DNA from: Methanosarcina horonobensis HB-1 = JCM 15518
Lineage (GTDB): Archaea > Halobacteriota > Methanosarcinia > Methanosarcinales > Methanosarcinaceae
Direction of reading: 5' to 3'
NCBI RefSeq assembly: GCF_000970285.1
Contig: NZ_CP009516.1
Span: forward strand, 1,343,036 to 1,407,035
DNA length: 64,000 nucleotides
Positions 10,809 to 56,109 of the stretch are shown here, piece by piece (within the stretch, counting starts at the first letter, position 1; the number at the start of each line of letters is the position of its first letter). A model generated the notes under the pieces. The model did no database searches and was not told where the DNA came from. It was given only the letters and a program-made list of their open reading frames with translations. Both the position numbers and the translations under genes were made by a program.

Positions 10809-10817
10809 AGCATGGGA

Positions 10818-34573: not shown

Positions 34574-34584
34574 GGTGATTTGTA

Positions 34585-35214: not shown

Positions 35215-35235
35215 ACTCGAAACAAAAATTCAAGC

Positions 35236-35275
35236 AATAATGACACTCTCCGGAGTGCCATTATTTTTATTTTTT
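35236..35275 (+). terminator. Very strong hairpin between the archaellins and the motor genes
   Basis: AATAATGACACTC and GAGTGCCATTATT pair at 12 of 13 positions around a TCCG loop and are followed by TTTATTTTTT. It starts 22 bases after the archaellin 2 stop and ends just before the flaC/D/E gene. As a leaky terminator or processing site it would make archaellin mRNA far more abundant than motor mRNA. Confidence 0.8.
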
Positions 35276-35297
35276 AATGCTACAGTTGGGTGATATG

Positions 35298-35954
35298 ATG
35301 AATAGTGGGGAAACCTTTGACCAGTCCATGATTGATAGTATTGTAGCTTCGGCTGAGAGCGACACTATAGAGTCCAAGGTTGCAAACCTTGAAGAAGAGG
35401 TTGCAGAGATCAAAGGCTCCATAAAGACTCTTCTCATGGATATAAGGGAAACGATGGGGGTCCTGGAAAATCCTTTCCAGAATATTCAGGGTATTGCTAA
35501 TATTTCCAGTGCCATAGTAAATCCCAAGGCAATAGAAGACCAGCTTCCTAAGGATGAAGAAATCGAAGAAGAGGATGAGCCTGATGATATGGAAATGGAG
35601 CAGGTTCCAAAAAATCTCTTTGAAGATCTGAGAAAAGCTGCTAAAAAACAGGCTAAAAGGGCTGACTCAAAACTGATTGATCCCATTTCCTTCTACAGGA
35701 CTATTGTCTGGAGTAAGGATATGGTGGAAAAATATGACCAGGACGCCATAAAGGAGTTAATCGAAGTATTCTCTCTCTTAGGATATATTCCCGGCGAAAT
35801 TAAGGAAATTATTATTAAAGTCATTGAGATCCTGATTAAAAATAACAACCTTGATGATGCAGTTATAGACCTGTACAGACTTTATCACATACTTTATCCG
35901 GAAGACATGTCTCTTGACTCCAAAGTGCTGGATCACATCCTGAATGAAAGATAA
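35298..35954 (+). CDS. FlaC/D/E-type (ArlCDE) switch protein (locus 2)
   Basis: A 218-residue soluble protein from ATG 35298; GGTGAT lies three bases upstream, as at several starts in this window, and an alternative ATG at 35277 has no ribosome binding site. It has a short coiled coil (ESKVANLEEEVAEIKGSIKT), an acidic linker (DEEIEEEDEPDDMEMEQ) and a C-terminal FlaD/E-like domain (PISFYRTIVWSKDMVEKY, IEVFSLLGYIPGEIKE). It is the counterpart of 10005-10739 but only moderately similar, so CheF could discriminate between the two motors. Confidence 0.82.
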   Translation: MNSGETFDQSMIDSIVASAESDTIESKVANLEEEVAEIKGSIKTLLMDIRETMGVLENPFQNIQGIANISSAIVNPKAIEDQLPKDEEIEEEDEPDDMEMEQVPKNLFEDLRKAAKKQAKRADSKLIDPISFYRTIVWSKDMVEKYDQDAIKELIEVFSLLGYIPGEIKEIIIKVIEILIKNNNLDDAVIDLYRLYHILYPEDMSLDSKVLDHILNER

Positions 35955-35969
35955 AACGGTGAATAATAC

Positions 35970-36449
35970 ATGTCAAAGGAAGTGATATCGTCAGCAATAC
36001 TCGTAATAGTGAGTGTTATAGCTGCAGTGGCTTTTGTTAATGCCGTACTTCCTTCCGTATATGGTCTATCCGAGTCTTACAGTTCCGTTGCTCGCAGCAT
36101 GGAAGACCAGTTCAAAACAGATATCGATATCATCTTTATTTATCCTGACGGGGACAACGTGTATGTCTGGATAAAAAATGTAGGGTCCTCAAATATACCC
36201 CTGTCGCAGCTACAATTCAGTGATGTCTTCGTTATGTCTTCTTCAGGCTACTGGAACCCCGCGTTTGAAGCTGCTTCAAATCCTTCATGGGATTATACTC
36301 TTGAAAACGGGGACGGAGATACCTGGAACCGCGGAGAAACCATTAAAGTATCTATAAAATTTGATGTTGATGAGCTGTCAAGTGGTATTTATAAAGTTAC
36401 CTTCTTCCTTTACAACGGGGTATCAGCATCAGACACATTCTCAAGGTGA
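35970..36449 (+). CDS. flaG: FlaG/ArlG-like stator protein (locus 2)
   Basis: A 159-residue protein with an N-terminal helix (SSAILVIVSVIAAVAFVNAV) and a beta-rich outer domain (FKTDIDIIFIYPDGDNVYVW, then IKNVGSSNIPLSQLQFSD). It matches the locus-1 gene at 9270-9764 over its whole length, including the C-terminal TFFLYNGVSASDTFS. It forms part of the S-layer-anchored stator together with FlaF. Its stop is four bases before the flaF ATG. Confidence 0.8.
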   Translation: MSKEVISSAILVIVSVIAAVAFVNAVLPSVYGLSESYSSVARSMEDQFKTDIDIIFIYPDGDNVYVWIKNVGSSNIPLSQLQFSDVFVMSSSGYWNPAFEAASNPSWDYTLENGDGDTWNRGETIKVSIKFDVDELSSGIYKVTFFLYNGVSASDTFSR

Positions 36450-36453
36450 TGCA

Positions 36454-36927
36454 ATGGGCCTTGACACGGTAATCGTAGCGTTCTTCGTAGTCGGAACGAT
36501 TCTGGTTGTTGCAGGTACTCTGACAATGGGGACCAATAATCTTGTTGAGTCGTCTTTCCACGGATACGTCTCAGCTCATCAAACCATGATGGACAGGCTT
36601 CAAACCAGGATTGAAATCCGGAACATAGCCTTCAATGTCTCAACAAATCATGCCAGCTTTACAGTTGCCAATACAGGTGAGACCAAATTATACAACTTCG
36701 ATCACTGGGATGTTCTCCTGGTAAAAAACGGTCAGGTATCCTATCTGGATAACTCTCAGTACACCATTACACCTGATGTTGATATCATAAATCCGGGTAT
36801 TCTGGACCCCCATGAAAGTGTTAAAATGGAATTACTGGTTGATCTCGAATCTAATGAGAGTTTCATTGTAAAAATTATTACCGAAAACGGTATCGTCTCT
36901 TCCGCAGAGCACGAGGCAGGTGAATAA
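36454..36927 (+). CDS. flaF: FlaF/ArlF-like stator protein (locus 2)
   Basis: A 157-residue protein from ATG 36454, with GGTGAT three bases upstream; longer frames upstream only overlap flaG. It has an N-terminal helix (MGLDTVIVAFFVVGTILVV) and a beta domain with FTVANTGETKLYNFDHWDVL and INPGILDPHESVKMELLVDL, matching the locus-1 FlaF (INPGVFDPGEKMKLQVRLD). The gene order flaG-flaF-flaH is the same in both loci. Confidence 0.8.
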   Translation: MGLDTVIVAFFVVGTILVVAGTLTMGTNNLVESSFHGYVSAHQTMMDRLQTRIEIRNIAFNVSTNHASFTVANTGETKLYNFDHWDVLLVKNGQVSYLDNSQYTITPDVDIINPGILDPHESVKMELLVDLESNESFIVKIITENGIVSSAEHEAGE

Positions 36928-36928
36928 A

Positions 36929-37645
36929 ATGGGAGAAAGTGAAGACAAGAAAAACATTATCTCAAGCGGCAATGATGAAATTGATAAAAAGCTGGGTGAG
37001 GGCATCCCATTGGGTTCCCTTGTGCTCATTGAAGGTGAAAACGATACGGGAAAGAGTGTATTCTGCCAGCAAATGACATATGGCGGATTGAACCAGCTTC
37101 ACAGGATAGCTTACTATTCAACCGAGAACACCGTTAAAAGCATGCTGGCTCAGATGGATAGCCTGAGCCTCGATATCTCGGATTTTTACAGCTGGGGCTA
37201 TTTCAGGATTTTTCCTGTCCATCTCGAAGGTGTCGAATGGACTTCCGAGCAGATGAAAGGTACCCTGCATCTCGTTACAACTCACATTAAAAGTATCAGA
37301 GAAAAAGTCATTTTTATCGACTCTCTTACAATGTTTACCACTTATTCTGATGAGGATAATATCCTTGAATTCCTTACAAGTTTGAAAAATTTGTGTGACA
37401 AAGGATATACTATTTTCATTACTTTACATCAACATGCTTTCAAAGAAGACACTCTTGTCAGAATACGGTCTTCATGTGATTGTCACCTGTTCCTCAGGAA
37501 GGAACAGCTCACTGACCGCTATATTAGCGTTATGGAAGTCTCAAAAATAAGGGGCGCCAAGAAGAGTACAGGTAATATAGTGAGTTTTGAAGTCCAGCCT
37601 GGGTTCGGTTTGAAAATAATTCCGATATCACAGGCTAAAGTCTAA
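36929..37645 (+). CDS. flaH: FlaH/ArlH, motor ATP-binding protein (locus 2)
   Basis: A 238-residue RecA-like protein, the usual FlaH length. Walker A GENDTGKS is at residues 36-43 and the Walker B-like strand KVIFIDSLTMF is present. ATG 36929 has AGGTGA five bases upstream; the GTG at 36920 would add three residues. It lacks the extra N-terminal residues of the locus-1 FlaH. It binds FlaI and probably regulates it through ATP binding. Confidence 0.92.
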   Translation: MGESEDKKNIISSGNDEIDKKLGEGIPLGSLVLIEGENDTGKSVFCQQMTYGGLNQLHRIAYYSTENTVKSMLAQMDSLSLDISDFYSWGYFRIFPVHLEGVEWTSEQMKGTLHLVTTHIKSIREKVIFIDSLTMFTTYSDEDNILEFLTSLKNLCDKGYTIFITLHQHAFKEDTLVRIRSSCDCHLFLRKEQLTDRYISVMEVSKIRGAKKSTGNIVSFEVQPGFGLKIIPISQAKV

Positions 37646-37682
37646 ATAAATTTAAACACTATTAGCCACGCATGGGGTTGAC

Positions 37683-39536
37683 ATGGATAGCATTGAGGAA
37701 AAGCTGGGTACTGAAGACGGTCATGTACTTAATGCAGGAGTATACACAAATTTTCCGTTTAAGCCAAAAAAATACGACGGACATGACCATTCAAACCTGA
37801 AAACGTGTAACCTTTACAAACTCCTCCCTCCGGAAATGAAATCCGAAGTTGAAAAAAATCTTCATCTTCTGGAGTACCTGCATATCCTGCCCATAGATAC
37901 AATGGGCATACCCAGATATGTTCCCAAGCTTGAGTCAAAACACGGTGATATAGAGGATCCCAATCTGATATACAGGGTCAATGACCAGATATACGTCCAT
38001 ATTTATCCAAACAAAAACGATGTAAGGAACTTCTATATTCCTATTGAGCCCATACTTCTTACCGGAGTTGGAGGTCTTATTAAAGAACTGGAAATCAAGC
38101 TTGTAGACCACCTTACAGGGATTGAATTTGATCCTGAAAATTTAGAGGAAAAAGAAAGGATACTTAGAGAATCCCTGGATGCTATCTGCGTAATCGGCAA
38201 TAAAAAAGAGATTGACAGTTCTGCTGCTGGTGCTGGTTCCGGGATCAAAAAATTGGGGTCAAAGTTTTTTCCAGCAAAAGAAGACCCGGAGAAGAATCAC
38301 ATTTACGTAACAAAGGAACAGTATGAAGCCCTGAAATACTCGATTATAAGGGACAAAATCGGAGTCGGTTTTCTTGACCCTTACATAAATGATAATAAAA
38401 TTGAAGATATTACCTGCAATGGTCTCGGGCCCATCTTTATTGAACACAAGGTGTTCAAGGGGCTCCGAAGTGTCATAGAATTCAATGACAATGATGCCCT
38501 CAACCATTTCATAGTCAGGCTTGCAGAGAGGATAGGAAAGCCAATTACTTTCAAAAACCCTATAGTTGACTCCACACTCCCTGACGGATCAAGGATTAAC
38601 ATTGTTTTTGGGGACGATATCAGTAAAAACGGGAGTAATTTCACTATACGTAAATTCGCTGACATTCCTTTCAGTATTCTTCAGGTCATAAAAGGAGGAA
38701 CTCTGGATTACAGGATGGCAGCCTATCTCTGGATCCTGATCGGTGAAGGCATGAGCGGTTTCATATGCGGAGAAACTGCCAGTGGTAAGACAACCACATT
38801 GAACGGAATCACAGCATTTGTAAATCCCGAGTCAAAACTGGTTTCAATCGAAGACACTCCAGAACTTCAGATTCCTCACAAAAACTGGACCCGGGAAACA
38901 ACCAGAGGCAGTACAAGAGGTGCAGGAACCGGAGAAGGCAGCGGTTCGGATGTTACAATGTTCGACCTTCTCAAAGCAGCATTGAGGCAGAGGCCAAACT
39001 ACATCCTTGTAGGAGAAATTCGAGGAGTTGAAGGTAATGTCGCATTCCAGGCCATGCAGACCGGCCACCCTGTCATGTCAACGTTCCACGCTGCAACCGT
39101 TGAGAAACTTATCCAGAGGCTTACTGCTGATCCTATAAACATTCCCAAAACGTATGTGGATAACCTCAACTTTGTCATCATTCAGTCTGCGGTACGGAGA
39201 CCGGACGGCAAGCTTGTGAGGAGAGTTCTCAGTATAAATGAGGTTCTCGGGTACAATCCGGACAAAGGCGGAATTTCTTTCATTGAAGCCTTTTCCTGGG
39301 ATCCTGTTACTGATACACATGTTTTCAGTGCTATGGGAAGTTCGTATATCCTTGAGAACAAAATCGCCACAAGGCTTGGAATTCCAGGTAAGAAAAAGAA
39401 AGCAATTTATGATGAGATTGAAAAACGGGCAAAAATCCTGGAAAGACTGAACGATGAAGGAATTGTAAACTACTGGGACTTTTTTAACACAATCGCAAAG
39501 ATTACGAAGTCCGGTATGCTGAGGATTCAGTTCTAA
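37683..39536 (+). CDS. flaI: FlaI/ArlI, archaellum motor ATPase (locus 2)
   Basis: A 617-residue ATPase with Walker A GETASGKTT at residue 363, Asp box LVSIEDTPELQIPHKNW, Walker B-region ILVGEIRG and His box QTGHPVMSTFHAAT. A Gly/Ser-rich insertion (RGSTRGAGTGEGSGSD) sits between the Asp box and the Walker B region and is a few residues longer than in locus 1. The rest aligns along the whole length with the locus-1 enzyme, including the N-terminal domain. All catalytic residues look intact. Confidence 0.95.
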   Translation: MDSIEEKLGTEDGHVLNAGVYTNFPFKPKKYDGHDHSNLKTCNLYKLLPPEMKSEVEKNLHLLEYLHILPIDTMGIPRYVPKLESKHGDIEDPNLIYRVNDQIYVHIYPNKNDVRNFYIPIEPILLTGVGGLIKELEIKLVDHLTGIEFDPENLEEKERILRESLDAICVIGNKKEIDSSAAGAGSGIKKLGSKFFPAKEDPEKNHIYVTKEQYEALKYSIIRDKIGVGFLDPYINDNKIEDITCNGLGPIFIEHKVFKGLRSVIEFNDNDALNHFIVRLAERIGKPITFKNPIVDSTLPDGSRINIVFGDDISKNGSNFTIRKFADIPFSILQVIKGGTLDYRMAAYLWILIGEGMSGFICGETASGKTTTLNGITAFVNPESKLVSIEDTPELQIPHKNWTRETTRGSTRGAGTGEGSGSDVTMFDLLKAALRQRPNYILVGEIRGVEGNVAFQAMQTGHPVMSTFHAATVEKLIQRLTADPINIPKTYVDNLNFVIIQSAVRRPDGKLVRRVLSINEVLGYNPDKGGISFIEAFSWDPVTDTHVFSAMGSSYILENKIATRLGIPGKKKKAIYDEIEKRAKILERLNDEGIVNYWDFFNTIAKITKSGMLRIQF

Positions 39537-39548
39537 ATGGTGGTTTAG

Positions 39549-41174
39549 ATGGGTGTCAATAAGATAAAAAACATTTTTAGCAAAAAGTCTAATTCAGGAT
39601 CCATTTTAGACCAGCTTTATGTTAAATATCAAGGCTACCAGAGAGAACTCTATATGAGCAATGATATGCTTTTTGCTCTTACTTATATGGCTTCAATCTC
39701 GACTGCCAATCTTACAAGGGACAAAATATTCTCAAGCATATCTGGGAAGAAAGAGTACTGCCCAAGTAAATATTTTAATCTGATTAGAGAACTGGCTCAA
39801 CACTGGCATTATGATTATGCCAATGCCTGTGAGCTAATATCCACAAAAGTAAAGAATGACAGAATGAGGTCACTTCTCAACAGGCTGTCAAACGCCATAG
39901 CGGCAGGAGAACCTGACAGTGAATTCCTCACCAAGGAATGGAGATTATTCAAGACAAAAAGAAAAGATGAGTTCGAAAGAGACCTTGATACCACGAAAGA
40001 ATGGTCAAACGCATACACAGCATTGCTTGTCTCCACATCGCTTGTAGCTATAATTATATTGCTTTCAGTGATTTTATACAATATCGGAGATCCGGCTGAT
40101 ACGCTTTATTCCACAATGTTTATCATATTTTTTATGGCCTTCTTTGGGGTAGGCCTGCTTTTTAGATGTTCTCCAAAAGACACTAAAGTCCATAATTTAA
40201 GTGTAAAATCAAAAGAACAGACTTACATTTATAAGTGGACTCCTCTTACGCTTGTTATCGCAGCCCTGGCTGTTTTATTGCTAACTGTTCTGCCGGCTTT
40301 CACCGGCTCAGCTGCTGATTTCTTTATTGATATTAAAGGAGTCGGGATGATTGTTGCAGGAGTTACCATGATTCCTGTAGGGATTGCGGCAAAAAAAGAT
40401 ATTGAAAAAATTAACAAAAGGGATGAAAGTTATACAACTTTCATAAGAAGCCTCGGGTCTATTATAAGCGGGTCCGGTCTGACTGTTCCAAAAGCTCTTT
40501 TAAAGATTGACCCCAAGAATCTTGGAGAGCTTAAAGATATGAGCCAGGAGCTCTATAAGAAATTGGCATCCGGGCTGGACCCTGCCCTTTGCTGGGGGAG
40601 GTTTGTCGGAGAAACGGGCAGCTATTTGATCTACAAATTTACAAGCGTTTTTGTAGACGCTGTCAATTTCGGGGGTAATGCAGAAGTGGTAGGTGAGCTC
40701 GTGAGCTCGTCAAACCTTGAACTGGTCCTTTTGAGAATGAAAAGAGAACGCATAGCCAAGGGATTTTCCAGTCTTGTTATACCTCTCCATGTATCGATGG
40801 TTGGCCTTCTCCTTTTCATAGGGCAGATCCTTACAATCTTTTCAACCATTATAAACTCCCTTTTTACCCAGTTTGATATAAACGAGTCCGAACTCGGGGG
40901 TATACCCGGCGGTATGGGCGGTATGAATATGGGGATATTCGGAGGCGTCCCTCTCGAATTGCTGGGGCAATTTGTTGTAATAGTCACTATTATTCTAACG
41001 ATTGCCAACCTACTTGCGATCGTTGCCGTAAAAGGAGGGCCGATGTACCTGGCGATCTACTATGGTACATTTATGTTCATACTTTCGGGAATACTGATGA
41101 TTATAGTCCCTCCGTTAGTGGAAATGGCTTTTTCATTTAATGGAGTACTCGATAGTCTAGCAGAAGGTATGTGA
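39549..41174 (+). CDS. flaJ: FlaJ/ArlJ, archaellum membrane platform (locus 2)
   Basis: A 541-residue polytopic membrane protein matching the locus-1 FlaJ over its length (NDMLFALTYMASISTA, KSKEQTYIYKWTPLTLV, LELVLLRMKRERIAKGFSSL). Hydrophobic segments lie near residues 157-177, 187-206, 226-246, 255-275, 420-440, 475-497 and 500-525. A Gly/Met-rich loop (GGIPGGMGGMNMGIFGG) near 455-471 is not shared with locus 1. One base separates its stop from the next gene. Confidence 0.93.
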   Translation: MGVNKIKNIFSKKSNSGSILDQLYVKYQGYQRELYMSNDMLFALTYMASISTANLTRDKIFSSISGKKEYCPSKYFNLIRELAQHWHYDYANACELISTKVKNDRMRSLLNRLSNAIAAGEPDSEFLTKEWRLFKTKRKDEFERDLDTTKEWSNAYTALLVSTSLVAIIILLSVILYNIGDPADTLYSTMFIIFFMAFFGVGLLFRCSPKDTKVHNLSVKSKEQTYIYKWTPLTLVIAALAVLLLTVLPAFTGSAADFFIDIKGVGMIVAGVTMIPVGIAAKKDIEKINKRDESYTTFIRSLGSIISGSGLTVPKALLKIDPKNLGELKDMSQELYKKLASGLDPALCWGRFVGETGSYLIYKFTSVFVDAVNFGGNAEVVGELVSSSNLELVLLRMKRERIAKGFSSLVIPLHVSMVGLLLFIGQILTIFSTIINSLFTQFDINESELGGIPGGMGGMNMGIFGGVPLELLGQFVVIVTIILTIANLLAIVAVKGGPMYLAIYYGTFMFILSGILMIIVPPLVEMAFSFNGVLDSLAEGM

Positions 41175-41175
41175 T

Positions 41176-42147
41176 ATGGATTTAATAACGATATACGAAA
41201 CAAATTTTACAATATTCATAGGTATTTTTGTAACTCTGGCTGTAATGGGAACAACAACTCTATACGATAAATATAAAAGTAAAGGCGGAGCCTCATTCGA
41301 TCTCGATAATTTTAAGTTTTTTTCGGATCTGAACCAGAAAATAACAGCTTTTGGCTCCAAGGGCTTGAAACAGTTTTCTAAATACAGCAAAAAACTTAGC
41401 AGTTTAATCCTGAATAAGTCCAGCTCAGGTCCGAAAAAGTCCAGTTCGATGAGGAAAAAACCCGCCTCAACCCGGAGTAACTCTAATAAAAATTCCTTTG
41501 AAAGAGTGGAAACAATACTCTTTAAAGTAAAAGGTGCTGTTCAGGATCTTTTTGTTAATCTCCGCAGTAAAACTTTATCCCTTTCGTCAGCTTTACCCCG
41601 CAGAAGCAATAAAGATAAGGAAAAATTTGCTTCTTTATCTGATAACCAGAAAGCAGATCTAAACTACAGTGCTGCTGACAAAGCTAACACTCTTGATAAA
41701 GTAGTCGAATCCAAAAAAGACGAATTAGATTTTGATGACGACCTTCTAACTGAAATGTCTACTTCAGACACTTTAACAGTCAGCAGTCCTGAACTTAAGA
41801 CTGCAGAGCCATCTCTTGGTGGTATGTCTCTGGATTTAGATACGTCATTTAATAACGATTTTAAGTTAGATGAAAATGAATTTGCGATTAAAGTTGATGG
41901 ACTGGATGATGAACCTGATGAAAATAACTTCAAATTTAGCGAGAACACTGAAGAGATAAAGTTTGGTGACGAAAGTGATAATTTCTTAGCTTCACTAAAG
42001 AAAGATATCATAGTTAAGAAAGAGAAAACGATCAATTTCATGGATAATATGCAGGACGAAAATCTGGATTTGAAGTTGATGAAATCCGACCTTGAAGGTG
42101 TTCTCAAGAATCTTAAAAAGTACAGACGGTATTCACATAGAAACTGA
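41176..42147 (+). CDS. Membrane-anchored charged protein after flaJ, unknown
   Basis: A 323-residue protein with one N-terminal membrane helix (FTIFIGIFVTLAVMGTTTLY), then a long Lys/Ser-rich stretch (about 70-115), an acidic low-complexity middle, and a short C-terminal conserved-looking piece (LKLMKSDLEGVLKNLKKYRR). It starts one base after the flaJ stop, so it belongs to the archaellum operon. The locus-1 gene in the same place (3406-4272) lacks the membrane helix but shares the charged middle and the C-terminal type of helix. It might serve as a motor-associated scaffold; that is inference from position only. Confidence 0.78.
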   Translation: MDLITIYETNFTIFIGIFVTLAVMGTTTLYDKYKSKGGASFDLDNFKFFSDLNQKITAFGSKGLKQFSKYSKKLSSLILNKSSSGPKKSSSMRKKPASTRSNSNKNSFERVETILFKVKGAVQDLFVNLRSKTLSLSSALPRRSNKDKEKFASLSDNQKADLNYSAADKANTLDKVVESKKDELDFDDDLLTEMSTSDTLTVSSPELKTAEPSLGGMSLDLDTSFNNDFKLDENEFAIKVDGLDDEPDENNFKFSENTEEIKFGDESDNFLASLKKDIIVKKEKTINFMDNMQDENLDLKLMKSDLEGVLKNLKKYRRYSHRN

Positions 42148-46932: not shown

Positions 46933-47586
46933 TTACGCATATCTCCATGCATCCCGGATATGCATGGCATTCATTCCAAGGCTCTGAGGTGGATAGATAT
47001 CATTTTCGGGTGTATCTCCGATAGATAGCACTTCCCAGGGTTCAAGTCCAAGACCATCGAGAGCCATCCTGAAGAGCCGGGTGTCAGGTTTCTTGAAATA
47101 GTGGTCCGAAGACATAATTGTAAAATTGAAACGGTCATACAGGCCTAAAAAGCGCAGTTCCTGCTCAGTAAACACTCTCTGAGCATTGGACACAATGCAT
47201 TTCGGAACATTTCTGTATTTCTCAAGCAGACGGAGGCTCTGTGGGTAAGCTTCGAGTTTTCTTACAGATGAAGTTCTGAATACCTTGGCTGTTTCAATTC
47301 CAAGCCAGAAGGGATCGATCTCTCTAAAAGCGTTTTCTGCACAGATCTCTGCAAAGATCTCCTCTATGCGGATATCCGGGTGCTGCTGGCCTGAATTACC
47401 AAGCCTGCCTATTACTTTCCACCTGTATTCTTCTCTGAGCCGGTCGGGTTCTATCTTTACCCCCTGATAGAGTAGCCATTTGCTTACTCTTTCATTTGTT
47501 TCTCGGCTTCCTTCATCTGTTTTTATATCTATAAGAGTTTTATAACAATCAAAGATTAAACCTTTTATTTTTCCTTTCTGGAGCAT
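46933..47586 (-). CDS. HAD-family hydrolase (haloacid dehalogenase type), copy 1
   Basis: A 217-residue HAD hydrolase. Motif I is LIFDCYKTLID: the nucleophile Asp is present, but the second Asp of ordinary HAD phosphatases is Tyr, as in 2-haloacid-dehalogenase-like members. Motif II is CIVSNAQ, and motifs III/IV are YFKKPDTRLF and LSIGDTPENDI. GGAGAG lies just upstream of ATG 47586. The substrate is unknown. A clear paralogue lies at 55345-56109, on the other side of the transporter block. Confidence 0.87.
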   Translation of the reverse strand: MLQKGKIKGLIFDCYKTLIDIKTDEGSRETNERVSKWLLYQGVKIEPDRLREEYRWKVIGRLGNSGQQHPDIRIEEIFAEICAENAFREIDPFWLGIETAKVFRTSSVRKLEAYPQSLRLLEKYRNVPKCIVSNAQRVFTEQELRFLGLYDRFNFTIMSSDHYFKKPDTRLFRMALDGLGLEPWEVLSIGDTPENDIYPPQSLGMNAMHIRDAWRYA

Positions 47587-47995
47587 AGGGACTCTCCGTT
47601 TAGTTTTTTGGATTTTTATATGGTTTGGATCTTTCTATCTCTATCTTCTATCACTCTAGATATTATCCTTTGAATATATAGATATTTCGTAAATACTCCT
47701 CTTATTTATAGACTTCAATATATAGTTCTATATAACTATATACTATCTCTTTGGTATCGACTCGGAGATGAAATTAAAAGTGATAGGTTTAAACTGATCT
47801 GGTGGTGCCATAGTCGTTGTGGCTACTTAGTAATAGAAAAGTCCATTTGTAGGAGTGTATGTCTTTCATCGATGAGTTTTCAAACGGCTTGAAGCTGACA
47901 GCAGATCAAGGGGAAATTTCCATTAGGTGAAAGGCTTCTACTCAATAGGAAATGCCCCAAAAAGTGAAATCACAGTGCTGCTCTCTGATTGCCAG
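47587..47995. other. Intergenic region between HAD copy 1 and the ABC operon
   Basis: About 410 bases, AT-rich near 47640-47760 where the HAD promoter must lie. No gene, RNA or clear terminator was recognised for the end of the ABC operon. Confidence 0.45.
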
Positions 47996-48874
47996 TTAAA
48001 GCTCTATTAAATCAGACCTGGGATCGGTGATGGACCTCAATTCTGAGCCAATGAGATTTGTCGCAAGCACAAACAGCATGATCATGCCTCCCGCAGATAA
48101 AGCCATCATAGGGGCGGTCTGAAGGTATACCAGCCCGTCCTTCAGGATCGCCCCCAGTTCAGGTGTGGGAGGCTGAACCCCGAGCCCAAGGAACCCAAGC
48201 CCCGATATTGCAATAATCCTGGACCCCAGTCCGAGAGTTGCAATCTCAATAATAGGTCCGAAGCTGTTAGGGAGAATATGGCGGAAGAGAATATATCTGT
48301 CAGATGCCCCGAGAGCCCTGGCTGCCTCGACAAATCCGCTATTTTTTAACGAAAGGGTAGATCCCCGTATCATCCGTGCATACTTTGCCCAGCCTGAAAC
48401 GGAGAAGGAAAGAATGATACCTGCAGGACTGGGACCGACAACACCAACAATAGCAATTGCAAGGACAATGTTGGGAAAAGAAAGCAGGATATCAGTTATT
48501 CGCATCAGGAACGCATCATACCTGCTGAAATAACCCGCATACATACCTATGATGATCCCTGCGGTTACTACGATGAGAGTTGAGATGATCGCAATTGAGA
48601 GCGATGTCTGCGCCCCGTATACTATGCGGCTGAAGATACACCTGCCGAACTGGTCGGTCCCCAGGGGAAAGGATGCTGATGGTGTAGATAATCTTTCTTC
48701 AAAGTGCATTTCTGCAGGGTCGTGCGGAGAAATTGTAGGAGCAGCTATGGCCATGATGGAGATAATGACAAACAGCAGAATCCCGATTGTGAGCGTTGCA
48801 TTTCCTCGCAGAAGTGACAATGCCCGGTTTATGCCGGACACAGCCCATTTTTCGTCCAGGTACGGATATTCCAT
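47996..48874 (-). CDS. ABC importer permease, DppC/NikC type
   Basis: A 292-residue membrane permease of the peptide/nickel importer class. It has an N-terminal helix (ATLTIGILLFVIISIMAIAA), the family-typical FPLGTDQFGRCIFSRIVYGA segment, and the EAA loop AARALGASDRYILFRHILPN that contacts the ATPases. About six membrane segments are expected. It is the last gene of a five-gene operon; its start is one base from the end of the neighbouring permease gene. Confidence 0.92.
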   Translation of the reverse strand: MEYPYLDEKWAVSGINRALSLLRGNATLTIGILLFVIISIMAIAAPTISPHDPAEMHFEERLSTPSASFPLGTDQFGRCIFSRIVYGAQTSLSIAIISTLIVVTAGIIIGMYAGYFSRYDAFLMRITDILLSFPNIVLAIAIVGVVGPSPAGIILSFSVSGWAKYARMIRGSTLSLKNSGFVEAARALGASDRYILFRHILPNSFGPIIEIATLGLGSRIIAISGLGFLGLGVQPPTPELGAILKDGLVYLQTAPMMALSAGGMIMLFVLATNLIGSELRSITDPRSDLIEL

Positions 48875-48875
48875 C

Positions 48876-49814
48876 TTACTGCCCCCTTATTGAAGGATCA
48901 AGATAAAAGTGGACGAGGTCGACACCGAGATTGATAAGGACAATAATCACTGCAAAAGTGAGCATACACCCCTGGACCACCATAATGTCCATCGAGGAAA
49001 CCGAATTTACAAGAAGCCTCCCAAGCCCTGGCAGTGCAAACATGCTTTCGATAACGACCACACCTCCAAAGAGCCAACCAAACTGGGTGCCCATGTATAT
49101 CAGAACAGGGACCAGAGCGTTCCTGAGAGCATGCCTCTGAATAACGTTTCTGCGGCTGAGCCCTTTTGCGCGGGCTGTCCTGATATAATCCTGCTCAAGC
49201 GTTTCTATCATGCTCGTTCGCATAATGCGCATTGTTACTGCGGTAAGGCCGACCGAGAGAGTCAGGGAGGGAAGGATAAAATACTCTATACCGCCAGTTC
49301 CTGCGATCGGAAAAATTCCCAGGTAAACGCCTCCAACCAGCATAAAAATTATCGCAACGAAAAAGTCAGGGCTTGAGAGACTGATAACGGAAGTAAGCCT
49401 GCAGAGATGGTCCACAGGCCCGTTCTGTCTCAGCGCAGAGACAATTCCGAGAGGAATGGCTGTGGCAGCTGAGAAAAGCATTGCAAGGACGGAGAGAGAG
49501 ATAGTTGTGGGTAGAGCATGTGTAATTTCCTCGAAAGTGCTTCGTTTTGTCTGGTAGGAATACCCCAGATCTCCGTGCACAACCCTTGATGCCCATTTCA
49601 GATAACTGATATGCCAGGGATCGTCAAGTCCCATTTCCTCGTGAAGTCTGGCTACCGCCTCTTTCGGTGGGCTTTCAGTGCCAAGTGTAGCTCTCAGCGT
49701 GATTTCAGCCGGGTCTCCGGGAGAGAGGGAGACTACAGCAAAGGTAATGAGTGAGACTCCGACCATTACATATGTCAATTGAAACAGGCGATTCAGTACG
49801 ATTTTGCGTGTCAT
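48876..49814 (-). CDS. ABC importer permease, DppB/NikB type
   Basis: A 312-residue permease with the typical N-terminal segment (LFQLTYVMVGVSLITFAVVS), SPGDPAEITLRATLG, and the EAA loop RTARAKGLSRRNVIQRHALR. It pairs with the DppC-type permease to form the channel. Gene order after it is DppC-type, and before it the binding protein, as in many peptide or nickel importers. Confidence 0.92.
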   Translation of the reverse strand: MTRKIVLNRLFQLTYVMVGVSLITFAVVSLSPGDPAEITLRATLGTESPPKEAVARLHEEMGLDDPWHISYLKWASRVVHGDLGYSYQTKRSTFEEITHALPTTISLSVLAMLFSAATAIPLGIVSALRQNGPVDHLCRLTSVISLSSPDFFVAIIFMLVGGVYLGIFPIAGTGGIEYFILPSLTLSVGLTAVTMRIMRTSMIETLEQDYIRTARAKGLSRRNVIQRHALRNALVPVLIYMGTQFGWLFGGVVVIESMFALPGLGRLLVNSVSSMDIMVVQGCMLTFAVIIVLINLGVDLVHFYLDPSIRGQ

Positions 49815-49867
49815 TCTTACTCAAACCTGTTATTAATTACAGCAGGATGCGGGTGGCTTATCCCGCA

Positions 49868-51418
49868 TCAGGCGATTGAGACATTCTCAAGGTTGAGAGA
49901 GTACTCCGTAGGATGGAGGCGGTATCCTTCTATATTCGAGGTGGTGACGTCGATATTGACATAATAGTTCAGATATGCAACAGGTGCTTCTTCAACTACT
50001 ATTGCCTGAACCTCATCATAGAGTTCTTTTCTGGCAGCCGTGTCGGACGTGGTTCTGGCCTGTTCGATCAGCTCGTCCACACGGTCGCTGTGCCAGTGAT
50101 AAGCTCCCCAGCCGTCTATTGACGTACCGTTCGAGTGATAATCAGTCATCATGATCTCGTCGGGGTCGGGTACGAAGAGTAGCCCTCTTCCAACCAGGAA
50201 GATATCGAACTCGCCTTTATTTCGAAGGGAATTTGCGGCATCGGTGTTGAGAACCTTAAGTTCGGTCTCAAACCCTACTTTCCTGAGCTGCTGCTCGATC
50301 ACCTCGGCTATCGGCGGCAGTTCTGCCCGCTCCGGGTAAGTAACGAGCGTAATCTTCAGAGGTCTGCCGTCTTTATCCAGGGTTCCGTCTCCGTCCGTGT
50401 CGGTCCACCCTGCCTCTTCAAGAAGCGACTTCGCTTTCTCCGTATCATATGTGTAAGGAGCAATCCTCTGGTTAGCCCAGTAAAAGTTCGGAGGGAAGAG
50501 CCCTGCTGCCGTGGTCCCGTATCCGTGAAGGATATACGTCACTATTGCTTCCCTGTCAATGGCATAGTTGACTGCCTGGCGCACCCTCTTGTCGTCAAAA
50601 GGCTCCTTCTCCGTGTTGAACCCTATCATCCTTACGCGAGCGATCGGCTGCTGCAGGACGGTATAACCATCCTTTTCCGTATATTCTTCCGCAATCTCGG
50701 GAGGAAGGATCATTGCGATCTGAATTTCCTTACTGTCAAGGAGCATCTTTCTCGTAAGTGCTTCAGGGATTACCCGGTATATCACTTTATCAACTGAAGC
50801 AGCCTGCCCCCAGTAATCGGGGTTTTTGACGACAACAATCTCTTCTTCCGGTTTCCATGACTCGAAAATAAAAGGTCCTGTACCGATAGGTTTTGTTACA
50901 TTTCCGCCTGCATCATAAGACCCTGGGGCAAGGGCCGCACTTTCCGCTCTGGAAAGATAGGCAGGCAGTGCAGGAAAAGGTGAATCAAGGCTTATTGTCA
51001 GGGTAAGGTTATCAGGAGTTTCAATGGCTGATACCGGGATTTTCCCGAAAACCGAGTCCGACTTGACAAAGGACCTTTCGAGTGAGTCCTTCATGGTCAC
51101 GGCTGTAAACCGTGTCCCGTCATGGAACCGGACACCTTCTCTCAATATAAATGTCCAGTTTTTACCATCGCTGGAAACCTCCCATGATTTTGCAAGGTTA
51201 GGGATGATCTTCCCCTCATAATCGACCCCTACAAGAGTTTCTACATACCCGAGCCTTTGAGATATGTAACCTGACAGGTGAGGATCAATGGTATTGGGGC
51301 TCCACTGACCCGAGATAGATAACGTCCGAATGCTTTCCTTCTGTTCCTGGTCTGCACAGCCCGCTCCCATGACAACGAGAGCCAGCAGAACCAAAATAAC
51401 CTCTTCTTTTCTTTTCAT
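49868..51418 (-). CDS. ABC importer substrate-binding lipoprotein (peptide/nickel family 5)
   Basis: A 516-residue solute-binding protein. The N-terminus is a lipoprotein signal with the lipobox GAGC (C21). The body shows the family 5 pattern: LSGYISQRLGYVETLVGVDY, LREGVRFHDGTRFTAVTMKD, GTGPFIFESWKPEEEIVVVK and RQAVNYAIDREAIVTYILHG. These proteins bind peptides, nickel, opine-type metal chelators or similar; the ligand cannot be read from sequence. It lies between the ATPase and permease genes. Confidence 0.92.
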   Translation of the reverse strand: MKRKEEVILVLLALVVMGAGCADQEQKESIRTLSISGQWSPNTIDPHLSGYISQRLGYVETLVGVDYEGKIIPNLAKSWEVSSDGKNWTFILREGVRFHDGTRFTAVTMKDSLERSFVKSDSVFGKIPVSAIETPDNLTLTISLDSPFPALPAYLSRAESAALAPGSYDAGGNVTKPIGTGPFIFESWKPEEEIVVVKNPDYWGQAASVDKVIYRVIPEALTRKMLLDSKEIQIAMILPPEIAEEYTEKDGYTVLQQPIARVRMIGFNTEKEPFDDKRVRQAVNYAIDREAIVTYILHGYGTTAAGLFPPNFYWANQRIAPYTYDTEKAKSLLEEAGWTDTDGDGTLDKDGRPLKITLVTYPERAELPPIAEVIEQQLRKVGFETELKVLNTDAANSLRNKGEFDIFLVGRGLLFVPDPDEIMMTDYHSNGTSIDGWGAYHWHSDRVDELIEQARTTSDTAARKELYDEVQAIVVEEAPVAYLNYYVNIDVTTSNIEGYRLHPTEYSLNLENVSIA

Positions 51419-51555
51419 TTAACTCATCACACCCAATTTATGTGTCAATATCAGTGCTGCAAAATCAGTATGCAGTAAATGTATGGAATAATCTGGAGTA
51501 ATCCAGCTGTTTTCTGCCCCTTCCTGCCTCCGGCTGTTGCAGGCCAGCGCTGCTG

Positions 51556-52467
51556 TCAGGCGTATGAAAAATTATGGCAGCGTACCCTCCTTCCTTTGTA
51601 TTCCAACATATCGGGGCTGTGAAGACATTTTTCTGTTTTTTCCGGGCAGAACTGGTAGTATACGCATGAGCCTGGGACCCGTGTCCCTTCAGGCTCAGTG
51701 CATTGTAAGGAACCCGTGCCCGGGAATGATGTGATCCTGCGGGTAAACGGGTGGAACGGCTTGTCCAGGATTTCACGACCCTCTTCTACAATTTGCCCCC
51801 CGAACATTACGGCGGTCCGGTCTCCTATAGCATGAGCCAGTCCCTGGTCGTGGGTAATAAAGAGAAGAGCACACCCAAGCCTGCTCTGTAGTGTCCGGAG
51901 AAGGCGGACAATAGCTGCCTGGGTGGATACGTCCAGCATTGACGTTGGTTCATCACAGATAATAAGGGCCGGTTCCAGTGCGATAGCGCGGGCAATGACC
52001 GCACGCTGCAGTTCTCCGCCGCTTAGCTGGTGTGGATATCGGAATGCCTGTTCAGGCTCAAGCCCGACAAGCTCCAGAAGCTTTTCCAGCTTTTCTCCCA
52101 TATGACTTCCTGGGGGTAGTGAGTCCGGGTGGATGCGAAAGGGCTCACAGATGGAGTCAGCTATCTTCCACCTGGGGTTCAGCGCACTTTCCGGCTGCTG
52201 GGACACGATCTGGATTTTTCGCCGGATCAATCGGAGTTCTTTTTCTTTCAGACCTGTCAGTGCCTGTCCTTCAAAGAATACCTCTCCCCGGGTCGGAGGG
52301 ATGAGCAGAAGGAGCAATCTCGAGAGGGTTGACTTTCCGCATCCGCTTTCCCCTACGAGAGCAAGTGTTTCTCCGGCATCGATCCGGATATCCACATTGT
52401 CAACAGCAATAATCCGGTTCTTTCCGGGAGGATTGAATACTTTTGTCAATCCTCTTCCTTCAATCAT
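51556..52467 (-). CDS. ABC importer ATPase, OppF/DppF type
   Basis: A 303-residue ATPase with Walker A GESGCGKS, the signature LSGGELQRAVIARAIAL, Walker B LIICDEPTSMLD and H-loop LFITHDQ. The C-terminal extension has the Cys-containing oligopeptide-transporter tail (GSCVYYQFCPEKTEKC) that binds an iron-sulfur cluster in some relatives. It overlaps the preceding ATPase gene by eight bases. Confidence 0.93.
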   Translation of the reverse strand: MIEGRGLTKVFNPPGKNRIIAVDNVDIRIDAGETLALVGESGCGKSTLSRLLLLLIPPTRGEVFFEGQALTGLKEKELRLIRRKIQIVSQQPESALNPRWKIADSICEPFRIHPDSLPPGSHMGEKLEKLLELVGLEPEQAFRYPHQLSGGELQRAVIARAIALEPALIICDEPTSMLDVSTQAAIVRLLRTLQSRLGCALLFITHDQGLAHAIGDRTAVMFGGQIVEEGREILDKPFHPFTRRITSFPGTGSLQCTEPEGTRVPGSCVYYQFCPEKTEKCLHSPDMLEYKGRRVRCHNFSYA

Positions 52468-53404
52468 ACAACCAGCACCTTACTGCCGATCCATCAGGAA
52501 GGGCAATTAGCGGCGGTTCGGCTCTACACCGCTCCATTGTGTATGTGCAGCGGAATCGGAATCTGCAGCCTCCGTCATATTTATCTGACTCTCTTGTCTT
52601 CCCTGATATTGGGTGAAGGCCGTTCTCAGGGAGTGAGAGGAGCATCCCCTTTGCATAGGGGTGCAGAGGGCCATCAAAAAAACTCTTTCTTTCCCTGATT
52701 TCCATGATTCTTCCGGAATACATGACCGCGACTCTATCGGCAAGGTTTTGGGCAAATGAGAGGTCGTGAGTGATAATTAGCAGGGTGATTCCTTTCTCGC
52801 GTAAAACCCGGAGAAGGGCAGAGACCGCCTGCCTGTTTATTATGTCTATACCTTTCGTCGGCTCGTCAGCTATGAGCACTTCCGGGAGACCTGCAATCCC
52901 CATTGCAACAAGCGATCTCTGGAGCATTCCGCCGCTGAAGGAGTAAGGGTATGAGCCGATTCTCTCCTCGGGAGGAGTTATGCGAATGAATTGGAGCAGT
53001 TCAAGAACTTTTTTTCGAACTATAGATCTGTTCTTTTCCACATGGAGAGCAATCGGCTCTCCTATCTGGTATCCCACGGTCATCGAAGGGTTCATGGATC
53101 CAGCAGGGTTCTGCGGAACCCAGGCAATCTTTCTGCCGCGGATCTTTTCAAGTTCACTCTCAGGGAGAGTTAGAAGGTCAGCGCCACGATAACGTACAGA
53201 TCCGGTAACGGTACAGTTTACAGGCAGCAGTCCGAGGACTGCAAGGCCCAGTACCGATTTTCCACTTCCACTTTCCCCAATGACTGCAAGTGTTTCGGAC
53301 CGAGCGATACCGATATCAATTCCGTCAACAGCCCTGACAGTCCTGTCTGACGTGGGAAAGTGTATATGCAGCTGTTGAACCTCAAGAATCGTGGTCATGC
53401 TCAA
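52460..53404 (-). CDS. ABC importer ATPase, OppD/DppD type
   Basis: A 314-residue ATPase and first gene of the importer operon. Walker A is GESGSGKS, the signature FSGGMLQRSLVAMG, Walker B VLIADEPTKGID and H-loop LLIITHD. The C-terminal Cys cluster (CRFRFRCTYTMERCRAEPP) matches the OppD-type tail. Together the two ATPases form a heterodimer. It is divergent from the methyltransferase pair across a 156-base gap. Confidence 0.93.
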   Translation of the reverse strand: MSMTTILEVQQLHIHFPTSDRTVRAVDGIDIGIARSETLAVIGESGSGKSVLGLAVLGLLPVNCTVTGSVRYRGADLLTLPESELEKIRGRKIAWVPQNPAGSMNPSMTVGYQIGEPIALHVEKNRSIVRKKVLELLQFIRITPPEERIGSYPYSFSGGMLQRSLVAMGIAGLPEVLIADEPTKGIDIINRQAVSALLRVLREKGITLLIITHDLSFAQNLADRVAVMYSGRIMEIRERKSFFDGPLHPYAKGMLLSLPENGLHPISGKTRESDKYDGGCRFRFRCTYTMERCRAEPPLIALPDGSAVRCWLYD

Positions 53405-53560
53405 TTTTTCCCATTTTTTTTGCTAACTTTTATTACGAAAATTGCAGAGTGTATGTTATTACTATTTATATTTGTTTTCATATATTCTATGACAATTGAA
53501 AAATAAATTGCTATAAATTCACACATATTAGCAGAAACGTATCATGAAGAAGGAGATAGC
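53405..53560. promoter_or_regulatory. Divergent promoter region, importer and methyltransferases
   Basis: 156 AT-rich bases serve both directions. TATTTATATTTG near 53462-53473 and CTATAAATTC near 53512-53521 are TATA-like. GGAGAT at 53552-53557 is the ribosome binding site of the first methyltransferase. A shared operator for co-regulation is likely but not identified. Confidence 0.45.
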
Positions 53561-54367
53561 ATGACTGTACAGATCGATTGGGAGACAGCATGGGCAGCAG
53601 GTATAGAGGAAATGAACCGTCTTTCCACCACAGGCTACTGGAACCGGCGGGCAGAGGATTACTCAGATATGGTTCTGGCAAGCGATTGTAATCATGGACG
53701 GAACATCTTCAACCTGTTTGAACGGGAAGGATTGCTGCAGAAAGAGTGGCATGTTCTCGATATTGCGTCGGGGCCTGGAGCGGTAACGGTTCCGTTTGCG
53801 GAAAAGGTATGCAGGGTGACCGCGGTTGAACCTGCAGAGAAAATGGCAGCGGCCCTGATGTCATATGCGCAGACAAGAAGGCTTTCCAATATCGATATAA
53901 TACCGCAGACCTGGCAGGCTGTGGATATTGCAACGTATGCAAAGAACTACGATTTAACCATCTGCTGCCATGCCCTGTGGCAATTTCCGGACATTCTCCC
54001 GCAGATCCGGCGCATGGAGGCAGTTTCCAGGGGGTACTGCTGCCTCGCTCACGGATTTGAAGCCTCTCCTGAAGGACGTGAACTGACGGATACCCTCGGG
54101 ATTGATACCGGTAGCTTTGACCAGTTCATTGCTATATTCAACCTTCTTAATAATACTGGAATATGCCCGAATATTGATGTGATAGATTACACACTTACCA
54201 GGTCGGTTGCCTCGGCAGTTGCCTCGGTCGAGAATCTCGTTTGGAAATACCGGCCGCTGGATGCCAGTGATAGTGCGTTTATTCGGGAGTATGTGCAGAA
54301 TCGTGCTGTGGAAGGTATGTATCAGGTTAACGGGAGGATGGGTGTTTTATGGTGGAAAGTAGCGTAA
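53561..54367 (+). CDS. SAM-dependent methyltransferase 1
   Basis: A 268-residue class I methyltransferase. Motif I is VLDIASGPGAVTVPFA (about 63-78), the acidic loop is TAVEPAEKMAA, and motif IV is YDLTICCHALWQFPD. It has an N-terminal helical segment (WETAWAAGIEEMNR). The substrate is unknown. The next gene is a tandem paralogue that overlaps it by one base, and both are divergent from the ABC importer, which suggests a common substrate or a product handled by the importer. Confidence 0.9.
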   Translation: MTVQIDWETAWAAGIEEMNRLSTTGYWNRRAEDYSDMVLASDCNHGRNIFNLFEREGLLQKEWHVLDIASGPGAVTVPFAEKVCRVTAVEPAEKMAAALMSYAQTRRLSNIDIIPQTWQAVDIATYAKNYDLTICCHALWQFPDILPQIRRMEAVSRGYCCLAHGFEASPEGRELTDTLGIDTGSFDQFIAIFNLLNNTGICPNIDVIDYTLTRSVASAVASVENLVWKYRPLDASDSAFIREYVQNRAVEGMYQVNGRMGVLWWKVA

Positions 54368-55236
54368 TGGACAGCTCTCTTATACCCGGTATCGACTGGG
54401 TCAGATCCTGGGAAGACAGCTATGATGCCCGTTCAAGGATAATGCGCAGGGACTACGGGCTCGATGACTGGAGTGAACGGGCAGAAGACTACTCGGAATC
54501 AAGGCGGACAAACCAGTATGAGTTCGGAGAGTCAGTATACTCTACACTCGACCTTCACGGAGTCATCCCTCCTCATGCCAGGGTCCTTGAAGTCGGCTCG
54601 GGTCCAGGGACTTTTGTAATACCGTTTGCACGGCATGTTGACCATATAACTGCTGTCGAACCTGCGGAAGGTATGATCCGTATGATTCGCAGGAACGCTG
54701 CGGAAGCAGGAGTGAAAAACTATGAGATTATCCAGAAGATCTGGCAGGACGTGAACAGCACAGAGTTCCGGGGTCAGTATGATCTAACCATTACTTCAAC
54801 CGTTATCTGGATGTTCCGTGATATCATGACCCAGATCAGCCGGATGGAAGAGGTAACACGGGGGCACTGCTGTGTGGTCGGTGGTGTCAGTACCGGGCAG
54901 ACTTTTGAAACAGAACTCTGGCGGAAGATTATGGGCAATGTGCCGTACCCGCAGTATCCGGAGTACCCGTTGATATATAACCTTCTCTATATGCGTGGCA
55001 GGGTGCCGCATGTGCGGGTTATTGATTATACAAGCACGAGAACACCTGAGAATATGCTAAGGATGTACAGGGTTTTCTACTCGATCTATACGGAGTTCAC
55101 ACCTGAGGTCGAAGAAAAGATTCAAGATGCCCTGTACAGTGATTCGGGTAAAGGGCCGTGCGTCAGAAAATACCGGTCTGCTGTAGTCTGGTGGGACCCG
55201 ACTGTTCGACGGAAGGAGTTAAAAGGCATAGCCTGA
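54367..55236 (+). CDS. SAM-dependent methyltransferase 2
   Basis: A 289-residue paralogue of the preceding methyltransferase. Motif I is VLEVGSGPGTFVIPFA, the acidic loop ITAVEPAEGMI, and motif IV YDLTITSTVIWMF. ATG 54367 shares one base with the previous stop (TAATG); GTG 54349 in the same frame would add six residues. Both enzymes share the N-terminal pattern IDWxxxW and a C-terminal VxWW ending, so they arose by tandem duplication and probably act on related substrates or successive sites. Confidence 0.9.
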   Translation: MDSSLIPGIDWVRSWEDSYDARSRIMRRDYGLDDWSERAEDYSESRRTNQYEFGESVYSTLDLHGVIPPHARVLEVGSGPGTFVIPFARHVDHITAVEPAEGMIRMIRRNAAEAGVKNYEIIQKIWQDVNSTEFRGQYDLTITSTVIWMFRDIMTQISRMEEVTRGHCCVVGGVSTGQTFETELWRKIMGNVPYPQYPEYPLIYNLLYMRGRVPHVRVIDYTSTRTPENMLRMYRVFYSIYTEFTPEVEEKIQDALYSDSGKGPCVRKYRSAVVWWDPTVRRKELKGIA

Positions 55237-55344
55237 AAACTCCGACAGGAGCTTTGTGGAAAATTTATGGAAAAAAACGGTACGCTGGAGTACCAATGGG
55301 AAGGTGAAGTACCCACAAATGTACCCACCTTCATAATTTAAAAA

Positions 55345-56109
55345 TCAGTCAATTATCCCGTAATGTTTCCAGGCTTCTTCAATGGTCATTGCCCGCATCC
55401 CGAGCTTTCTTGCCGGAAGTATCTCGTTTTCGTAAGAGTCACCAAGGGATAGAACACATTTGGGTTCAAGTTCAAGTTCCATCCTCTTGAGTGCGGTCAT
55501 AAAGAGTCTGAGGTCAGGTTTCTTGTACCCTACGTCGGAAGAGAAAATTACAAAGTCAAAATAGTCATAGAGCCCCAGGAACCGGAGTTCCAGTTCGGAA
55601 AAAACCCTTTGCCCGTTGGAAATTATGCACTTGGGTGTGTTAATGCAGTGTTCTATTAACTTTATGCTCTCAGGAAAGGGACGAAGTTTCCTGATGGAGG
55701 CTGCCCTGAAAACTCTTGAAGTCTCAATTCCGAGGCTTTTTTCGTCGATTTTCCAGATAGAGTTTTCCCTGCAGATCTCTGCAAAGATATCTTCTACCTT
55801 TACTTCAGGGTATATCTCTCTTGATTCCTCCATCCTTTCCTGCACCTTGAGTATGTAAGTATCCCACAGCTTTTCAGGCTTTATTTTTACCCCGTGGTAG
55901 GCAAGCCATGCGCTTACGGTTTTATAAGTCTCGATCTCGTGTTCTTCGGTATGGATGTCAATAAGCGTCTGGTAGCAGTCAAAAATGACCCCTTTTATCT
56001 TGCAGCTCTCAAATGTATCTTCCCCTGCTATGATAGGATCGGCGGGAACGATTATAGTGCTCTCATCTGTTTCCAGTTCATTGTTTCTTGAAATGTTCTT
56101 GCCTCCCAT
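55345..56109 (-). CDS. HAD-family hydrolase, copy 2
   Basis: A 254-residue paralogue of the HAD protein at 46933-47586, with about 35 extra N-terminal residues (MGGKNISRNNELETDES). Motif I VIFDCYQTLIDIH has Tyr in place of the second Asp. Motif II is CIISNGQ, and motifs III/IV are GYKKPDLRLF and LSLGDSYENEI. Shared segments outside the motifs (for example WLAYHGVKIKPEKL versus WLLYQGVKIEPDRL) show true paralogy. The substrate is unknown. Confidence 0.87.
   Translation of the reverse strand: MGGKNISRNNELETDESTIIVPADPIIAGEDTFESCKIKGVIFDCYQTLIDIHTEEHEIETYKTVSAWLAYHGVKIKPEKLWDTYILKVQERMEESREIYPEVKVEDIFAEICRENSIWKIDEKSLGIETSRVFRAASIRKLRPFPESIKLIEHCINTPKCIISNGQRVFSELELRFLGLYDYFDFVIFSSDVGYKKPDLRLFMTALKRMELELEPKCVLSLGDSYENEILPARKLGMRAMTIEEAWKHYGIID

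Follow-up and report, generated by a model that had tools for sequence, protein, structure and literature searches.

Genes at the locus

We analysed a window of 64,000 nucleotides from Methanosarcina horonobensis HB-1 = JCM 15518 (contig NZ_CP009516.1, positions 1,343,036 to 1,407,035 of the forward strand), whose genome is a single contig of 5.02 Mb, and focused on a seven-gene cassette encoding an importer and two methyltransferases (47746..55337, genes on both strands). The outer limits of the cassette are approximate and were set by blastn of the flanks and by conserved gene order. It is flanked by two HAD hydrolase genes on the minus strand, HAD-A (46933-47586) and HAD-B (55345-56109), which share 55% identity over 217 residues (E 8e-84). 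A sequence-only reading of the window had described two HAD paralogues in the same orientation bracketing a five-gene peptide/nickel-type importer and two divergent tandem methyltransferases, with no peptide-synthesis gene nearby. The description proved correct on each of these points.

Pfam and NCBIfam profile scans matched all five importer genes, which lie on the minus strand, to Opp/Nik families, and the set of SBP_5, BPD_transp and ABC subunits is complete, as in NikABCDE. Permease C (OppC/NikC-like, 47996..48874; PF00528) scored 276 bits with NF045473 (cut-off 350) and 271 bits with TIGR02790 NikC (cut-off 358). Permease B (OppB/NikB-like, 48876..49814; PF00528) scored 330 bits with the nickel permease model NF045470 (cut-off 350) and 270 bits with a Nik subunit model (cut-off 447). 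The substrate-binding protein (SBP; 49868..51418), a NikA-like member of the SBP_5 family (PF00496, E 2.8e-104), scored 304 bits with NF045468 (cut-off 600) and 261 bits with TIGR02294 NikA (cut-off 393). For the two ATPases, ATPase F (51556..52467; PF00005) and ATPase D (52460..53404; PF00005 and PF08352, the oligo_HPY tail), the Nik models gave 231 bits for NikE (cut-off 333) and 178 bits for NikD (cut-off 319). The top NCBIfam models for the SBP and both permeases were nickel models. Matches to the Cnt models were also below cut-off, with 202 of 800 bits for CntA, 212 of 440 for CntC, 192 of 380 for CntD and 194 of 385 for CntF, the last two being the best of either ATPase. No peptide-synthesis enzyme was found among the ten proteins scanned with Pfam (46.9-57.1 kb); the other open reading frames (ORFs) were read by eye only.

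The two methyltransferase genes, MT1 (53561..54367) and its paralogue MT2 (54349..55236), lie on the plus strand. Their products share 32% identity (E 8e-47) and match PF13649 (Methyltransf_25) with 36.3 bits (E 9.3e-9) and 39.7 bits (E 8.4e-10), above the gathering score of 27. On these matches and on the predicted model of MT1 (predicted local distance difference test score, pLDDT, 95.2), both are class I S-adenosylmethionine (SAM)-dependent methyltransferases, with a Rossmann-type fold predicted for MT1.

The importer genes and MT1/MT2 are transcribed away from each other across a 156-base gap. Overlaps of 19 bases between MT1 and MT2 and of 8 bases between the ATPase genes, together with a gap of 1 base between the permease genes, point to two transcription units that run in opposite directions. 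Between them, near the start of ATPase D in the divergent promoter region, a 37-base block (53448..53484, plus strand) is conserved with 0-5 mismatches in each of the 11 cassette-bearing Methanosarcina genomes, even where the gap to MT1 is longer. With up to 9 mismatches allowed, it occurred among the loci compared only at such cassettes, including the public locus L077, and it was not found in the related Methanoregula (L081) and Methanocalculus (L080) loci. From its position and conservation, the block is presumed to be a promoter or operator. It contains GTATG and CATAT half-sites; a NikR operator was considered and set aside, as the block occurred at these cassettes alone and could not be linked to NikR.

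The importer and methyltransferases form a conserved unit

We surveyed the distribution of the cassette in 30 Methanosarcina genomes. An SBP orthologue was present in 11 and MT1 in 12, and the SBP orthologue and the MT1-MT2 pair occurred in the same 11. The order of the seven genes was kept in the 10 other Methanosarcina loci read, the ATPase genes being fragmented in one draft genome (G002). A phylum-wide sample of 392 genomes, searched at E<=1e-120 for the SBP and E<=1e-32 for MT1, contained the SBP in 10 genomes, MT1 in 11 and both in 9, seven of which were genus genomes already counted. Three other genomes of this sample showed partial arrangements: one carried the SBP (45%) with a different methyltransferase beside it (G126), one had an MT1 relative (48%) closing an operon of Peripla_BP_2, FecCD and ATPase genes, that is, of Fec type (G010), and one had a 31% relative and no SBP at the threshold (G214). 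Outside the genus, the unit was also found in Methanoregula and, as far as the contig reaches (the SBP is cut and the ATPases are not covered), in Methanocalculus, with another gene order. No HAD gene occurred among the labelled neighbours at either locus, in surveys that skipped unlabelled ORFs below 80-90 residues. The sequence-only reading had named, as an outcome that would speak against it, an importer found without the methyltransferases in most relatives; the two were found together in 11 of 11 genus genomes with the importer and in 9 of 10 in the phylum sample. These results strongly support the importer and MT1/MT2 as one conserved unit.

The position of the HAD genes is different. 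Both are widespread in the genus, with relatives in 29 of the 30 genomes, and in 13 cassette-free genomes HAD-A and HAD-B are neighbours, 0.3-1.4 kb apart. The cassette thus sits between two HAD genes that lie next to each other in other genomes. Blastn comparison of each flank with 11 cassette-free HAD-B/HAD-A intergenic regions showed that the likeness ends 0-8 bases past HAD-B; on the other side, its end varies with the site and lies some 20-160 bases short of HAD-A. In nine of the 11 cassette genomes HAD-B lies directly beside the cassette, which favours a single functional module of HAD, importer and methyltransferase genes, as the title of the sequence-only reading suggests. HAD-A, however, is intact in only three of these nine (3 of 11 overall), decayed in one (G027) and not found in five, and the remaining two cassettes sit elsewhere without HAD genes. 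Since the HAD genes also pair without the cassette in 13 genomes, we place them outside the system and, on these counts, reject a module that includes them as scarcely credible; the part of the earlier proposal that stands is the joining of importer and methyltransferases. In G027, the decayed HAD-A at the cassette site (G027:C479:22382-22960) has four internal stops, and an intact copy lies elsewhere in that genome.

An entry of the unit between duplicated HAD genes had also been suggested. The filled gap agrees with this, and the history of the cassette may be either an insertion or an ancestral presence with repeated losses, between which the trees do not decide. In a tree of HAD-B, the cassette occurs in separate groups, and trees of the SBP and MT2 split similarly (built from matches that spanned 70% of the query and passed set minimum identities). 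Inspection by eye showed no target-site repeat. The GC content in 1-kb bins is 46-52% in the cassette and 37-43% in most of the flanks, a contrast that proves nothing about the cassette because the neighbouring valS also has 51% GC.

Importers of two types lie near methyltransferases across the M. horonobensis genome

We examined whether the pairing extends beyond the cassette in the M. horonobensis genome, to which the rotation test was confined. Twelve SBP_5 loci and seven Peripla_BP_2 genes, 15 loci together (two tandem SBP_5 genes merged as one), were compared with 65 PF13649 matches; the SBP of the window served as query for the SBP_5 genes, and more distant ones may be missed. A PF13649 match lay within 6 kb of 13 of the 15 loci, against a mean of 2.1 and a maximum of 7 in 5000 rotations. 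Within 5 kb, matches were found at 9 of 12 SBP_5 loci (mean 1.3, maximum 5 in 20000 rotations) and at 6 of 7 Peripla_BP_2 genes. One of the 13 loci rests on a PF13649 match below the Pfam cut-off, to a gene at 3357586 that resembles an O-methyltransferase; leaving it out lowers the count to 12 of 15. Other ABC (ATP-binding cassette) importers, represented by 11 BPD_transp_1 permease genes at 9 loci, had a match within 5 kb at one locus and within 6 kb at two, one of which itself adjoins an SBP_5 locus. The importer-adjacent methyltransferases match different query subfamilies, and the rule therefore does not reflect mere copies of one operon. With an order that recurs in 10 other Methanosarcina genomes and a proximity far above the rotation controls, the arrangement exceeds chance.

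Three other loci carry related gene sets. Those at 811000-826000 (L195) and 1160000-1176000 (L014) combine an SBP_5 importer with methyltransferases and contain ModB above cut-off, and L195 also contains ModA and a NifK/NifN-like gene, both below cut-off. In an island at 2925000-2942000 (L193), an SBP_5 importer lies at short distance from genes of a Fec-type importer, a MinD-like ATPase and three methyltransferases.

The methyltransferase family in public genomes

Thirteen aligned family members were used to scan public genomes, and the best 80 of 122 relatives among the retained pattern matches, which lie at 79 distinct loci, were followed up. The family was clear in 74 of these (88 ORFs with at least 100 bits), referred to below as the listed loci; seven ORFs below 100 bits, the sole family matches in 5 of the 79, were left out. 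An importer gene was present within 5 kb in 39 of the 74 listed loci, of SBP_5/Opp type in 19, of Fec type in 24 and of both types in 4. That one type of methyltransferase accompanies importers of two families speaks for its acting on the imported compound.

Some of the listed loci have telling layouts. In Methanolobus vulcani (L104), the order is NikR, methyltransferase, SBP_5, permeases, ATPases and O-methyltransferase, and in Desulfobacula (L089) and a Desulfobacteraceae genome (L140) it is TonB receptor, methyltransferase, SBP_5, permeases and ATPase. Four of the 74 loci have NikR-like genes no more than 10 kb away (one, L082, confirmed by hidden Markov model (HMM), the others identified by similarity to it). 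In three of the 74, all from Desulfobacula or Desulfobacteraceae, a TonB receptor adjoins the methyltransferase or lies close to it (L140 confirmed by HMM, the others by similarity). TonB systems serve scarce or bulky ligands, and these receptors suggest a ligand of that kind, such as a chelate. The receptor in L140 (L140:7818-9956) lies directly before the methyltransferase and the SBP_5 importer and matches the NCBIfam type FCYXU with 687 bits (cut-off 825); in L089, a similar receptor is divided over two ORFs.

Other neighbours were also recorded. In nine loci (L108, L119, L133, L137, L139, L151, L153, L154 and L155), eight of them from Methanomicrobiales, the family lies near a MacB/FtsX-like gene and not an importer; these were grouped by clustering, with one copy scanned against profiles. 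An FmdE-like protein adjoins the SBP_5 importer at L202:3282-3935 and at L106:7930-8580 (the latter PF02663), and 6 of the 74 listed loci have an FmdE-like gene no more than 10 kb from the methyltransferase. A recurrent P-loop ATPase in 12 of the 74 had been labelled CooC by eye; two scanned copies were MinD/ParA-like, below cut-offs, and the label was dropped and is not evidence for nickel.

Proposed function

We tentatively favour, at somewhat less than an even chance, the reading that the cassette encodes a movable NikA/Opp-type importer of a small metal chelate, likeliest of nickel, with two dedicated methyltransferases that unload the metal. We infer all three elements: the chelate as ligand, nickel as the metal and unloading by methylation. 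The SBP would capture the chelate outside the cell, and the other four importer subunits would pump it in. MT1 and MT2 would methylate the chelator in the cytoplasm and weaken its grip on the metal; the metal would be released, and the methylated ligand would no longer be able to carry metal out. A metal-binding ligand, already suspected in the sequence-only reading, is the favoured candidate on the NikA-like scores and on the neighbours of some relatives.

The predicted structure of the SBP (pLDDT 90.8) matched 5u4o first and a NikA structure second in Foldseek. Solved SBP_5 relatives bind peptide, opine, glutathione and heme as well as nickel. This range would also suit an importer of a plain peptide, an opine-like compound or a methylated organic nutrient, with the methyltransferases acting in its catabolism or repair, and the nickel-model scores under cut-off and the ATPases' preference for peptide models point the same way. 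Known Fec-type importers carry siderophores, heme and corrinoids, however, and the methyltransferase family pairs with such importers too; the seven conserved genes, moreover, include no peptidase or other catabolic enzyme. We consider uptake of a nutrient improbable. E. coli NikA H416, named essential in the title of structure 3qim, lies opposite a glycine in the pairwise alignment with the SBP when residues are counted from the numbering given there; the loop is gapped, and a histidine of the query three residues off is kept in the seven close relatives aligned.

The methyltransferases might instead build or finish a chelator, transferring a methyl or aminocarboxypropyl group from SAM, with the importer recovering the loaded chelator after its secretion. 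CntL, a SAM-using enzyme of the staphylopine operon, is an example of such a transfer. The pairing with an importer and the TonB receptors in the three listed loci suit such a role, as do possible exporters near relatives, namely DrrB-like ABC-2 permeases in 6 of the 74 listed loci and MFS genes in L014 and L042. Against it, the ten window proteins scanned include no exporter, ligase or opine dehydrogenase, and no staphylopine-synthesis model appeared among the NCBIfam matches of MT1 and MT2, the library not having been checked for CntL. Methylation alone rarely makes a chelator. Biosynthesis is an unlikely, if still serious, reading, and unloading is favoured over it, with nickel the likeliest metal. 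Among the 50 structural matches of MT1 listed, none was CntL- or nicotianamine-synthase-like, which excludes nothing.

In a second-look structural alignment, the highest matches of the MT1 model were TmtA and GtmA (Z 20.4 and 20.3; next rows 19.3), with an rmsd of 3.3 over 244 residues and 12% identity. Foldseek placed other methyltransferases above them, and we take the likeness to thiol methyltransferases, counted in favour of the preferred reading, as a lead only. The structural neighbours of MT1 also include the M. tuberculosis heterocyclic toxin methyltransferase, and MT2 matched the TehB model weakly (27 of 218 bits), all of which would suit methyltransferases that detoxify a thiol, a metalloid or an inhibitor entering via the importer. 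Detoxification would leave unexplained both the near-universal methyltransferase beside the two importer types in the genome and the TonB receptors, and we regard it as very unlikely. Matches of MT1 and MT2 to NF043040, the model of the corrinoid-protein-associated methyltransferase CpaM, reached 27.9 and 34.1 bits, under the cut-off of 180.

Several observations weigh against an importer of nickel chelates with unloading enzymes. Every importer subunit falls short of the curated NCBIfam cut-offs for Nik, both ATPases match peptide-importer models best, and likeness of fold does not establish function. Among the closest members of the methyltransferase family in the M. horonobensis genome, six in number, two stand alone, and 35 of the 74 listed loci have no importer within 5 kb. 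NikR and TonB neighbours are few and come without a measured base rate; for the five of six NikR_C matches in the genome that were tested, none lay within 6 kb of a PF13649 match. Molybdate transport genes are found close to two SBP_5 loci, directly next to L195 and at a distance of about 7 kb in L014. Nickel therefore need not be the metal, which may differ between systems, and some SBP_5 importers with methyltransferases may concern molybdenum.

A broader proposal is possible, though we think it rather more apt to fail than to hold: that methanogens, along with certain sulfate reducers and further anaerobes, as a rule link the uptake of metal chelates to dedicated class I SAM enzymes that act on the chelator, either unloading it by donor-atom methylation or making it from SAM. 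If true, two unrelated importer families would share a step that processes the chelators of non-redox metals, nickel among them, in a role comparable to that of siderophore reductases and esterases for iron.

For the reading of the cassette as a chelate importer, a hint comes from passages of a proteome study of M. barkeri (PMC10846266): oligopeptide-type and Fe-dicitrate-type binding proteins were less abundant with Fe(II)/cysteine and more so when Fe(II)/sulfide or pyrite was supplied. Its authors tied the OppA group to cell-cell recognition. The levels given in these passages fit metal-starvation genes; the proteins were not matched to the cassette.

The conserved pairing points to an undescribed enzymatic step in methanogen metal uptake. 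No published description of an importer-methyltransferase pairing was found in titles, abstract openings and passages, and subscription journals may hold a mention. The near-universal presence of a separate methyltransferase with importers of the two chelate-type families in the M. horonobensis genome offers a direct handle, with enzymes that can be deleted and SBPs that can serve as bait for the natural ligand.

Other features of the window

Two archaellum-type clusters (3406-11411 and 33983-42147) run in opposite directions and enclose chemotaxis genes. The stretches 18098-20134 and 20533-22536 encode chemoreceptor-like proteins that are nearly identical to each other. Both were identified by eye.

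Comparison with known systems

The cassette resembles the NikABCDE importer of the E. coli type in its five subunits of the same families and in an SBP that is nearest to nickel models, with the NikA fold as second structural match. It differs in that all its subunits fall below the curated cut-offs, that two divergent methyltransferases are present and that no NikR was found among the window genes scanned. With the staphylopine Cnt operon it shares an Opp-type importer tied to SAM-using enzymes (CntL in Cnt). Unlike in Cnt, the matches to CntA, CntC, CntD and CntF are all below cut-off, MT1 is predicted to be an ordinary class I methyltransferase, and the ten window proteins scanned include neither an opine dehydrogenase nor a member of the nicotianamine-synthase family at E<=0.001, nor an MFS gene.

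By structural Z, MT1 is nearest to GtmA and TmtA, in an alignment that spans almost the whole protein; at 12% identity, this is resemblance only. Both are fungal and are not known to be tied to an importer. A parallel in gene arrangement is offered by the Fec/Btu-type importers with helper enzymes, since relatives of MT1 occur in such operons (L042, L144 and others). Other bacteria keep metal-freeing esterases or reductases in that place of the operon, whereas the helper here is a methyltransferase. If the proposed function is true, methylation would join the known ways of freeing metal from imported chelates.

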